DNA of 51,152 nt from Actinomycetota bacterium (GTDB lineage: Bacteria > Actinomycetota > Humimicrobiia > Humimicrobiales > Humimicrobiaceae): assembly GCA_028717265.1 (NCBI GenBank), contig JAQUOE010000008.1, positions 1 to 51,152 of the forward strand, given 5' to 3'. Positions 2,825 to 11,413 of this stretch are shown one piece after another. The notes under the pieces are model-generated. The model was not told where the DNA came from. It searched no databases and worked only from the letters and a program-made list of their open reading frames with translations. Made by a program: the position numbers and the translations under genes. The stretch's first letter is position 1. Every line of letters begins with the position of its first letter.

Positions 2825-3847
2825 TTAAACCTCGGATTTAAACTTTCTTTTCATCAATTTATTGACAGATTCGACCGGACTTAAATCTTTATAAATAATC
2901 TCATAAACACATTCGGTAATCGGAACTTCGATATCCAGTTCTCTGGAAATATCATATACGGCTCTGGTAGTATTGACCCCTTCCGCAACCATGTACATAT
3001 TTTCAAGAATATCCTCAATGCTTTCTCCGCCTGCTATCTTCTCGCCAACATATCTGTTCCTGCTGTTTTCGCTTATGCATGTTGCTATAAGATCCCCCAT
3101 CCCTGCCACTCCTGAAAATGTTAAAGAATCGGCACCAAGTCTTGTTCCGAGTCTGGAAAGTTCATGCAGTCCTCTTGTAATCAAAGAAGCCTTTGTATTT
3201 GCTTTATATCCCATACCATCTGAAATTCCCACTGCTATTGCTATTATATTTTTTATAGCTCCGCCTATCTCGACACCTGTAATGTCTTTATTGGTATAGA
3301 CTCTGAATTTGTCCGTAGATAATAAAGGCTGGATGTATTTTAATGTCTCTCTATTACGAGACGCAGCCACCGATACACTTGGTAGTCCCTGCGCAACCTC
3401 CGAAGCTATATTGGGACCGGATAATACGCAGATCTTTGATATAGATTTCCCTGGCAGGCATTGTTCCATTACCTGCGATAACCTCAAATTGGTTCCAATC
3501 TCAAGTCCTTTTGCAACATTTAATACACATTTTATATGCTCTATATTCTTTCTTATGATCTCATTAAATTTATTGATTATTGCTCTTAAAGCATGGGATG
3601 GTACTGAAAAAATAATGATTTCAGGATTTCCGAAACCATCTTCAGGTTTTATGAACGGTGTGATATTTTCAGGTATATGCAAATCGCCTGTATATTTTTT
3701 ATTTTTTCTTGATCTTTTTATTTCTTCATACGTATCCTTACTTCTTGTCCATAAATTTATCATATATCCTTTTTCTGCAAGAATTACCGATAACGTAGTT
3801 CCCCAGCTTCCGGCTCCTATTATAGTTATGTTAACCTTTTTGCTCAT
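2825..3847 (-). CDS. gpsA: NAD(P)H-dependent glycerol-3-phosphate dehydrogenase
   Basis: GAGSWGTTL Rossmann start; NVAKGLE, LSGPNIASEVA, GVAGMGDLIATC motifs. Confidence 0.96.
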   Translation of the reverse strand: MSKKVNITIIGAGSWGTTLSVILAEKGYMINLWTRSKDTYEEIKRSRKNKKYTGDLHIPENITPFIKPEDGFGNPEIIIFSVPSHALRAIINKFNEIIRKNIEHIKCVLNVAKGLEIGTNLRLSQVMEQCLPGKSISKICVLSGPNIASEVAQGLPSVSVAASRNRETLKYIQPLLSTDKFRVYTNKDITGVEIGGAIKNIIAIAVGISDGMGYKANTKASLITRGLHELSRLGTRLGADSLTFSGVAGMGDLIATCISENSRNRYVGEKIAGGESIEDILENMYMVAEGVNTTRAVYDISRELDIEVPITECVYEIIYKDLSPVESVNKLMKRKFKSEV

Positions 3848-3868: not shown

Positions 3869-5185
3869 TTAGTATTTAAATTTAAAATATATAGGGGTAC
3901 CCATAAAACCGAACTTATCTCTTATGCTGTTTTCAATATATCTTATAACATTTACTTTTCTTTTTACATCCATATTCGAATAAACTAAAAAAACCGGAGG
4001 TGAAGACTTGACCTGTCTTATAAATTTGATTTTGAATCTCTTACCTTTTATAAAAATACCCGTTGTTTCCTGATCCAGTTTTTTAAAAAAGCCTGTGATC
4101 ATGTTATCAGATATTTCTTTTTTTCTCTCAATCATAAGCTTATCTATCATTTTTATTATATTTCCGATCCCCTTTTTTTCCAGTGCGCTTATCTTTAAAA
4201 AAGGAATATAATTTGCAAATTTAAGTTTTAAATTAAACATGTTTATAATATTATCAATTGTTTCTCTATCAGTTATATCGATTTTATTAAAAATAACACA
4301 AATGCTTGAGCCTTTCTCTATGCAGGTTTCTATGATTTTAACATCCTGTTCGGTTACTTCTTTACTGCAGTCTATAAGCATAAGGCTTATATCCGATTTT
4401 TCTATGGCTCTTAAGGTGCGAAGTCCGCTATAATAGTCCAGATCTTCTTCCTTTCGCTTTTTTCTTCTCATTCCGGCGGTATCTATAAATTTGTAGATCT
4501 TATTATTTATTTTAACTATGCTATCTATACTATCTCTCGTGGTCCCTTCTATCTCATCTACTATCGCCCTTTCGTCTCCGATAATAGCATTAAACAACGT
4601 TGATTTTCCCGTATTCGGTTTTCCAAGAATACAAATAGCAGGAACTTTTTCCTCTTCATATTTATATATATCAATAGAATCTTTTTTAAATTTGGAAACA
4701 ATTTCATCCAGAAGATCTCCAGTGTTTGTGCCGTGCAGTGCAGATATTTTTATCGGATATCCAAAGCCAAATTTTAAAAAATCTTCAATAAAGAAATCCC
4801 CTTTTACATCATCATACTTATTGCCCGTAAAAATGATTTCCTTATCTGTTTTTCTCATCAGTGATGCTATTTCTTCATCCATAGGAGATACGGGCTGCTT
4901 TAAATCGACCATAAATATAATGATATCCGATTCGTCTATAGCTTTCTTTGTTTGAAGATATATCTGCATATCCATCCTTTGTTTTGATTTCAAATCTATT
5001 CCGCCTGTATCCATCAAATAAAAAACCTTACCGTTCCAATCGGTTATGTAATATTTACGGTCCCTTGTGATCATCGGATCTTTATGCACGATTGCCTCGC
5101 CTTTTTTACATATTCTATTGATCAGAGTGGATTTACCCACATTGGGTTTTCCGATAATAGCAACTCTGGGTATGTTCTCATTCAT
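3869..5185 (-). CDS. der: Ribosome biogenesis GTPase Der (EngA)
   Basis: Two tandem G domains (GKPNVGKSTLINR and GKPNTGKSTLFNA) plus KH-like C-terminus. Confidence 0.96.
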   Translation of the reverse strand: MNENIPRVAIIGKPNVGKSTLINRICKKGEAIVHKDPMITRDRKYYITDWNGKVFYLMDTGGIDLKSKQRMDMQIYLQTKKAIDESDIIIFMVDLKQPVSPMDEEIASLMRKTDKEIIFTGNKYDDVKGDFFIEDFLKFGFGYPIKISALHGTNTGDLLDEIVSKFKKDSIDIYKYEEEKVPAICILGKPNTGKSTLFNAIIGDERAIVDEIEGTTRDSIDSIVKINNKIYKFIDTAGMRRKKRKEEDLDYYSGLRTLRAIEKSDISLMLIDCSKEVTEQDVKIIETCIEKGSSICVIFNKIDITDRETIDNIINMFNLKLKFANYIPFLKISALEKKGIGNIIKMIDKLMIERKKEISDNMITGFFKKLDQETTGIFIKGKRFKIKFIRQVKSSPPVFLVYSNMDVKRKVNVIRYIENSIRDKFGFMGTPIYFKFKY

Positions 5186-9861: not shown

Positions 9862-10983
9862 TTACTCACCAAACACTTTTTTTACACTTACTTTGTGATC
9901 TTTTTTTTCGATTGCTTCTTTTGCTATCTTACCGGCATCTTCACCCTGAACCAGTACTTTAAGGATTCCTCCTCCGCTGAACTCTGTTGAATGAAAAATG
10001 GATATGTCTTCAATGTTTATTCCAACTGAACTTATTGCTTGAGTGATCTCGCTTAAAACTCCTGCTCTGTCAGTCATGGATACTCTAAGCTCATATAGAT
10101 TCGAAATGTCCTTCTCTACATATTTGGGAAGATTGACTCTGGCTTTCTGTGCCTTTAAATAATGGTTTTTAATTGATTCCGAGTCACACTGCTTGAGATA
10201 TATTTTAAATTTTTTGAGATATTTTATATAATTATCTACCGACTTTATCAATACGTCTTTATTTTCCAGGCTTATGTCCAGCCACATTTTTGTATTAGCG
10301 GCAGCTATTCTGGTCATATCCCTGAATCCTCCGGCACACAGCTTAAATAAATTTTTCATCTTTTTCTGTTCATCGTCTATCATATCAACAAGATTCGTAG
10401 AAAGGATATGAGGCAAATGACTGATAAGCGCAACATTTTCGTCATGTTCCCTCGGATTCATAGAGATTACTTTTGCACCGATTTTCGTAAATAATGAGTG
10501 CAGTATGACAAGTGGTTCGGATACAGTAATATCGGTAGGAGTAAGAATATAAAATGTATTTCTGAATAATTCCGGAGTGGCGCTGAGAATACCTTCATTT
10601 TCAGATCCGGCCATCGGATGACCTCCTATGAAAAATACACCTTCTGGCAATATTTTGCTTATTTTTTGGACTATCTTTTCTTTAGCGCTTCCCACATCGG
10701 TAACAATAGCTCCTTTTTTCAAATAATCCTTAATATGTTCCGCAACTTCGACTATTTTACTTATGGGAGTCGCTATTATTATCAAATCTGCATCAGTCAC
10801 CGCTTCCTTATAATCCCTGGCAATAATATCGATTACGTTTCTGTATTTGGCAATATTCATTGCTTCGCCTTCTATATCGAAACCGGTAATATTGAAATAT
10901 TCACCTGTATTTTTTAGAGATAAAGCCATAGATCCGCCAATAAGTCCGAGTCCTATAACTGTTATTTTTTTAATATTTTTCAT
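9862..10983 (-). CDS. tyrA: Prephenate dehydrogenase with C-terminal ACT domain
   Basis: GLGLIGGSMALSL, GGHPMAGSENEG, HDENVALISHLPH; C-terminal ACT (LRVSMTDRAGVLSEITQAISSVGINIEDI). Confidence 0.93.
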   Translation of the reverse strand: MKNIKKITVIGLGLIGGSMALSLKNTGEYFNITGFDIEGEAMNIAKYRNVIDIIARDYKEAVTDADLIIIATPISKIVEVAEHIKDYLKKGAIVTDVGSAKEKIVQKISKILPEGVFFIGGHPMAGSENEGILSATPELFRNTFYILTPTDITVSEPLVILHSLFTKIGAKVISMNPREHDENVALISHLPHILSTNLVDMIDDEQKKMKNLFKLCAGGFRDMTRIAAANTKMWLDISLENKDVLIKSVDNYIKYLKKFKIYLKQCDSESIKNHYLKAQKARVNLPKYVEKDISNLYELRVSMTDRAGVLSEITQAISSVGINIEDISIFHSTEFSGGGILKVLVQGEDAGKIAKEAIEKKDHKVSVKKVFGE

Positions 10984-11172
10984 TTTATGGCCTTCCTATA
11001 ATAAGAATGCTGATATTATCAGAAGTTTATAGAAATATTTTAATACTATATAAAAATTATCAGATTTTGTGAATAACAATTTAATTGACATTATTTATTT
11101 TACTATAGTTTTTATTAATGAAAAAAAATATAATAATTTTCTAAAATCCTTCGGATTATTCTGCTTAATCTA

Positions 11173-11201
11173 TTGACAACATTTTTCAATTTTGATATCT
11201 T
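11173..11201 (+). promoter_or_regulatory. Candidate sigma70-type promoter
   Basis: TTGACA (11173-11178), 17-nt spacer, TATCTT (11196-11201) on the + strand in an intergenic region with no + strand CDS downstream. Confidence 0.6.
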
Positions 11202-11207
11202 TTTATC

Positions 11208-11375
11208 ATCCCGGAACAGGAGGCAACTTTCAAGTATAACTGATATTTATTTTCGAAAGAGAATAAATAAGAGGTTAATAATTTGAAAAGTCCCTGAGAA
11301 AAGTTCCCTGATATGCCCCGAGATGTTCAGTAGTCTAAGGCTTATGGCTATGACAAAAGATAACTCGGGGTTTTT
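11208..11375 (+). ncRNA. Candidate structured small RNA, class unknown
   Basis: Lies between a promoter-like element and a strong terminator; internal pairing GGAAC/GTTCC, ACTTTCAA/TTTGAAAAGT, and an 11-bp stem TATTTATTTTC-GAAA-GAGAATAAATA with GNRA loop. Confidence 0.55.
11316..11375 (+). terminator. Rho-independent terminator of the candidate ncRNA
   Basis: CCCCGAG (11316-11322) pairs with CTCGGGG (11364-11370), followed by TTTTT. On the minus strand no T-run follows the stem. Confidence 0.75.
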
Positions 11376-11413
11376 AAATGGAAAATTTTAAATGGAAACC
11401 GCAGTTATTTATT

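Follow-up and report, generated by a model that had tools for sequence, protein, structure and literature searches.

A conserved, multicopy family of structured small RNAs, uncatalogued in Rfam, in uncultured Actinobacteria

We found that the gap beside tyrA in the window (the whole stretch of 51,152 nucleotides analysed, from an Actinomycetota bacterium) almost certainly holds a member of a real, conserved RNA family that is uncatalogued in Rfam. The gap (10984-11413, 430 bp) lies between two minus-strand genes, tyrA, which ends at 10983, and a YhfC-like gene, from 11414, and the original prediction had placed in it an independently transcribed, structured small RNA. Comparison with relatives bears this out, in that orthologues beside tyrA (14 loci) and paralogues at unrelated sites alike preserve the promoter, the fold and the U-run together. 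On re-reading the sequence, we found every listed element at its coordinates, including the GGAAC/GTTCC pairing (11213-11217 with 11303-11307), the CCCCGAG/CTCGGGG pairing (11316-11322 with 11364-11370) and the T5 that follows it (11371-11375), and the GAAA-capped stem (11244-11269). Two claims had to be modified. The RNA gene at the tyrA gap stands, but it is not a lone gene, being one copy of a multicopy family; likewise, the 3' end does carry the GC stem and U-run of a terminator, but not of a simple one, as its hairpin has a 41-nt loop and is absent from the pattern-scan list. Few parts of the RNA are as well conserved as this loop. The single-sequence folding energy of the window RNA is lower than that of all 200 of 200 dinucleotide shuffles (z = -4.8). 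A coding role was rejected: there is no conserved reading frame, and the longest closed ATG frame is usually shorter than 17 codons.

Table 1. Predicted features of the window copy
Feature	Position	Strand	Details
Sigma-70 promoter	11173..11201	+	-35 TTGACA 11173-11178, 17-nt spacer, extended TG 11193-11194, -10 TATCTT 11196-11201
Predicted transcription start	11207..11209	+	Inferred from distance to -10
RNA, about 168 nt: 5' hairpin domain, 3' hairpin domain, U-run	11208..11375	+	Covariance model R1
5' domain	11208..11312	+	Basal stem P1, 11208-11217 with 11303-11312
Core internal loop, 5' strand AGGCAAC	11221..11227	+	AGG pairs with CCU 11293-11295
Core internal loop, 3' strand CCUGAGAAAAG	11293..11303	+	Conservation among copies
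5'-domain apical stem with CGAAAG	11244..11269	+	GAAA tetraloop 11255-11258
3' domain	11315..11371	+	Stem 11315-11322 with 11364-11371; extension 11324-11327 with 11359-11362
Bulged-G-like module	11329..11357	+	AGUA 11329-11332 opposite AAA 11355-11357; sequence pattern only
GAAA-receptor-like motif	11334..11353	+	UCUAAG 11334-11339 with UAUGA 11349-11353
U-run of intrinsic-terminator-like 3' end	11371..11375	+	U-run in 86/87 copies

We examined the distribution of the family in uncultured draft genomes. A DNA search gave matches in 23 of 41 genomes, with several copies in each, and 45 distinct full-length copies were aligned to build a covariance model, R1. This model matches the window at 11205-11377 (168.8 bits, E 1.1e-33; the window copy is among its 45 building sequences), and it has matches in all 35 genomes of the actinobacterial family to which the window belongs, at 113 places and with 1-11 per genome. 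The search for occurrences covered genomes of the phylum plus phages and plasmids. In one sister family, f2, the one genome (88% complete) has a single divergent copy (38.9 bits), while none of the four genomes of another, f3, was matched. Under stricter filters, about 359 genomes from elsewhere in the phylum gave no match, and laxer filters, applied to 32 of these and to the four f3 genomes, returned chance-level matches only; the sole weak match in f3 falls inside a 539-codon coding frame and was therefore dismissed as chance. The phage and plasmid collections contain no match to the family. Of six members of the phylum outside the class that were tested, three have the Actino-pnp RNA, and we therefore take the phylum to be Actinomycetota; the small, AT-rich MAGs of the class might fit a lineage such as Humimicrobiia.

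The divergent f2 copy (L132:3002-3165, G025:C1) has its own promoter and terminator and keeps the exact core, ACAGGAGGCAAC...GUCCCUGAGAAAAGU, set in different stems, with no GAAA loop or receptor seen in it. Because the exact core is kept there, the core loop is probably older than the window's family. The 3' core strand is kept in 71 of 91 aligned copies, most with both strands. A core-only pattern search of the phylum matched the f2 copy only, with a gap range too short for the family's own copies. The same sister-family genome has a c-di-GMP-II riboswitch (RF01786; L132:453-537, minus strand) barely above the cut-off.

The promoter accompanies the RNA in most copies of the family. In the window, its score of 10 out of 12 equals the best of any promoter in the gap, and no other there has an extended TG. 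A sigma-70 promoter lies near the model start in 78 of the 87 copies examined, compared to 9% of shuffled upstream sequences; the -35 is TTGACA in 67 and the spacer 17 nt in 60, and the -10 usually ends 3-5 nt ahead of the model start. Moreover, similarity between paralogues often begins at the promoter and ends at the U-run. For example, the paralogues L040 and L100 are 93.8% identical from -42 to +181, and the alignment to a distant tyrA orthologue (L096) contracts to 11168-11376. From these conserved promoters and paralogue boundaries we infer that the family has its own transcription, and the window RNA is likewise predicted to be transcribed.

Comparison among the copies shows a conserved secondary structure of two domains. 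The original prediction had offered conservation of the stems in relatives as a test of its claim, and the fold is kept, with compensatory changes, in 45 relatives. RNAalifold, run on an alignment made from sequence only, yielded 37 pairs, 31 of them with compensatory changes. In the refined model of 44 pairs, 93.3% of pairs are standard, 34 have changes on both sides (P1 has compensatory changes at all 10 of its pairs), and the covariation score is 0.378, compared to 0.217 in shuffles, with 0 of 500 shuffles scoring as high; because these shuffles ignore kinship, the covariation numbers are strong support and not probabilities. The refined model collapses if it is slid by one column. Furthermore, in a structure-free scan for mutual information across 91 copies, predicted pairs rank at the top (11250-11263, 11317-11369, 11249-11264, 11320-11366, 11214-11306 and 11213-11307). 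The scan also showed that the 3' stem continues further (11324-11362 and adjacent pairs), and this part was later added to the model.

Since the 3' domain carries a receptor-like motif in which one pair covaries, the GAAA loop of the 5' domain likely docks into that motif, in the same or in a second molecule. The AAA of the tetraloop is invariant in 91 of 91 aligned copies and its G is kept in 89; the full CGAAAG is present in 87 of 97 copies. The canonical 11-nt GAAA receptor consists of 5'-UAUGG and 5'-CCUAAG (PMC10004510), and the resembling 3'-domain motif is CCUAAR...YANGG, with YCUAAR in 89 of 97 copies and an opposite strand that varies as YANGG. The exact canonical letters at the platform (TAAG with TAT) are found in only 14 of 97 copies. 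The window version, UCUAAG/UAUGA, differs from the canonical receptor by a compensated change of C-G to U-A, and the pair that covaries in the mutual-information scan, 11339-11349, would be the receptor's G-U pair. Below the receptor, AGUA opposite RAA resembles a bulged-G module (by pattern only), which in the window copy would stack on the stem GUC 11333-11335/GAC 11352-11354; U11331, A11332, A11356 and A11357 are conserved at 97-100%. A similar pattern, GAA opposite AGUA, is found in the 5' arm of most copies, the window copy excepted.

We inspected the neighbours at about 106 loci. At 14 loci the RNA is divergent from tyrA, as in the window (class A); at 23 it lies upstream of ilvE on the same strand (class B); at 6, plus G020:C61 by position, it stands directly ahead of an RRM gene (class C); and 63 others adjoin unrelated genes. 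The tyrA and ilvE orthologues keep their place across many genera. Overall, the neighbours are diverse (ilvE, tyrA, typA, RRM, nuoF and others), downstream genes lie on either strand, and many copies are followed by no gene of their own strand. Only at the 6-7 RRM loci is the RNA placed as a riboswitch or cis leader would be, regularly ahead of related genes and in the same orientation. Because the neighbouring strands are mixed, the RNAs are mostly not leaders and would generally act in trans.

The link to RRM proteins is the most testable lead to a function, and our leading interpretation is that the RNA acts in trans within a ribonucleoprotein, with RRM proteins as its likeliest partner. 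RRM proteins occur in all 35 genomes of the family (1-6 each, compared to exactly one in each f3 genome), Hfq was found in 0 of 40 genomes of the class and CsrA in 5, and the copy numbers of RRM proteins and RNA are correlated (Spearman 0.46, p 0.006, uncorrected for genome size and kinship). Class C adjacency also supports the link, as does the precedent of Bacteroides, in which the RRM protein RbpB binds 14 paralogous FopS sRNAs (PMC11697453). Against the link, an RRM gene lies next to the RNA at only 6-7 of the roughly 106 loci inspected, the f2 genome (88% complete) has a divergent RNA with no match to an RRM protein, and the f3 genomes have exactly one RRM protein each and no RNA. Since the free seed of FopS is absent here, we give this candidate mechanism a probability of about 0.4.

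As we picture it, the family would consist of independently transcribed, tertiary-folded small RNAs, each made into a compact particle by docking of the GAAA loop into its receptor within or between molecules. That such particles work in trans as ribonucleoproteins, with an RRM protein as likeliest partner, is a weaker suggestion. At RRM-adjacent loci, the RNA would serve as a cis autoregulatory leader, such that RRM protein, when free, attaches to the RNA domain and alters read-through or translation of its own mRNA; at other loci, the RNA would store, titrate or guide the RRM protein, in a role that Hfq or CsrA fill in other bacteria. At class C loci, the terminator leads into the conserved 5' leader of the RRM gene within about 20 nt (5 of 6 aligned loci), and because a TATAAT box occupies the corresponding leader position in several RRM genes that lack the RNA, the RNA promoter probably drives the class C RRM genes by read-through. 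These class C copies lack the AGGCAAC core, so they may have diverged in function.

A bolder reading, which we consider unlikely, is that these structurally complex RNAs form a class with its own activity, either ligand sensing or assembly of paralogues via intermolecular tetraloop-receptor docking, and that together with RRM proteins they make up a dedicated RNA-protein system, free of Hfq, in uncultured Actinobacteria.

The best-surviving rival, also unlikely, is that the RNA senses a ligand as a riboswitch-like element, both as a free-standing gene and as a leader ahead of RRM genes. Metabolite-binding RNAs and ribozymes often contain tetraloop-receptor and bulged-G-like modules. The candidates for both here, together with the conserved loop within the terminator-like hairpin, speak for such a sensor, but the neighbours share no common pathway and behind many copies there is no gene on the same strand.

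Next in order, and improbable in our judgement, is a base-pairing regulatory sRNA, in which a conserved unpaired stretch binds the start regions of mRNAs and paralogues serve dosage, as for FopS. The FopS precedent speaks for this, as do the many copies with their own promoters in genomes with RRM proteins and no Hfq found. Indeed, FopS of Bacteroides thetaiotaomicron resembles the present family in comprising multicopy paralogous sRNAs, mostly with their own promoters and terminators, in an RRM-using bacterium (PMC11697453). FopS, however, consists of a single-stranded 5' seed and a terminator hairpin, whereas the present RNA folds from the outset into two domains, probably joined by a tertiary contact: P1 starts at model position 4-5, a few nucleotides from the predicted start, which leaves no free, conserved 5' seed, and the conserved unpaired bases sit within internal loops. 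Nor is the Shine-Dalgarno-like AGGAGG kept, as it is often AGAAGG. A Shine-Dalgarno mimic or ribosome decoy was rejected on this ground and because the second GG of AGGAGG is paired.

We think it quite improbable that these are selfish or mobile-element RNAs, repeats spread by transposition whose conservation reflects recent copying. Copy numbers as high as 11, the occurrence of degenerate and truncated copies, the position of many near contig ends and two pairs of neighbouring copies might suggest as much. Orthologues nevertheless keep to the same site in many genera, next to tyrA at 14 loci and next to ilvE at 23, compensatory changes point to selection on the fold, no transposase was noticed beside copies, and phages and plasmids gave no match.

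Individual copies show several irregularities. The window genome has a degenerate fourth copy (G000:C11:43408-43585; L088:2909-3086), in which the 5' domain is largely intact and the 3' domain and promoter have decayed. Two genomes of genus g11 have neighbouring copies on the same strand (L115:3028-3202 and 3509-3679; L129:2993-3165 and 4791-4877). The tyrA-class RNA of G003 (L008, about 1629-1780, G003:C96) is split just before the GAAA loop by an insert of about 150 bp, whose end, GAAGCAGGAAGCCC...GGTAGTTCAC, resembles an IS200/IS605-type right end. At L131 (G002:C159), two RNA copies, one of them interrupted, flank RelE-like and HTH genes (toxin-antitoxin-like), and several copies in G002 and G006 adjoin toxin-antitoxin-like genes.

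Less probable again than a selfish element is an RNA that simply controls an adjoining gene such as ilvE in cis, as a leader or attenuator. It is true that ilvE follows 23 copies on the same strand, and that RRM genes follow 6-7. For the window copy the idea is refuted, since the genes on either side of it are both encoded on the opposite strand; among the loci as a whole, the downstream gene frequently runs the other way, and a promoter-like TTGCAA...TAMAAT belonging to ilvE itself follows the RNA in the gap, where the alignment shows it, which led us to reject the RNA as a leader of ilvE.

Finally, we compared the RNA to known classes. The Rfam scan for which the original prediction had called (4227 families) produced no match to the window RNA or to the RNA in 12 further loci of relatives, and it is thus not a class described in Rfam. 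The only low E-value (0.0064) belonged to sR52, a small nucleolar RNA model, which was rejected at 22.9 bits, far below its gathering score of 50. The earlier, hedged suggestion of a 6S-like RNA proved wrong: the window RNA is not 6S, since the same genome has a separate, genuine 6S gene (RF00013, 78.9 bits) at G000:C4:58632-58821. A 6S gene was found in 32 of 40 genomes of the class. Even a divergent 6S, for which length and the long irregular hairpin might speak, has almost no probability left, given this true 6S gene elsewhere and the lack of any match of RF00013 to the RNA at gathering or at E<=10. The two kinds of RNA are alike in size, in having their own promoter and in being ubiquitous in the lineage; in contrast to 6S, the present RNA is multicopy, coexists with a true 6S gene, and has two separate, side-by-side hairpin domains that covary, with no closing stem joining both ends round a central bubble into one closed rod.

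Other classes share single traits with it. The raiA motif, or ModT, of Bacillota and Actinomycetota is likewise a small RNA that stands alone and is highly structured (PMC11706538), but it is described with two pseudoknots and eight stems, and no Rfam model matches the present RNA. Group I and II introns and the RNase P specificity domain have a GAAA loop with a CCUAAG/UAUGG-type receptor (PMC10004510, PMC3494683), whereas here the receptor drifts (YANGG), no such family matches, and the RNA, at about 168 nt, is without intron or RNase P features. CsrB and RsmY offer a likeness in the possible protein-sequestering mode, but CsrA was not found in 35 of 40 genomes of the class (it was found in 5) and there is no array of GGA hairpins, and titration of CsrA was rejected on the former ground.

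Few bacterial RNAs both stand alone and have a complex conserved fold, and several of those have proved abundant or have turned out to form unexpected particles (ModT, PMC11706538; GOLLD, ROOL and OLE, PMC12286853). The present RNA, absent from Rfam, is predicted in every examined genome of the family, in up to 11 copies, and at about 168 nt is short enough for direct structural work; the family would offer a testable case of RRM proteins and paralogous RNAs in a lineage without Hfq.

We also noted that RRM genes of the taxonomic class have a strongly conserved 5' leader of their own, AAGAGTTAGG...TTACCTCTC...TTAGAGAAA...AAGGAGGTAAGTATG, seen upstream of the RRM genes in L158, L161, L164, L177 and L179 and in L136 at about 3200-3310. 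A related leader occurs in f3, which is without the RNA. Within the leader, TTACCTC can pair with the ribosome-binding site, and the leader is possibly autoregulatory.
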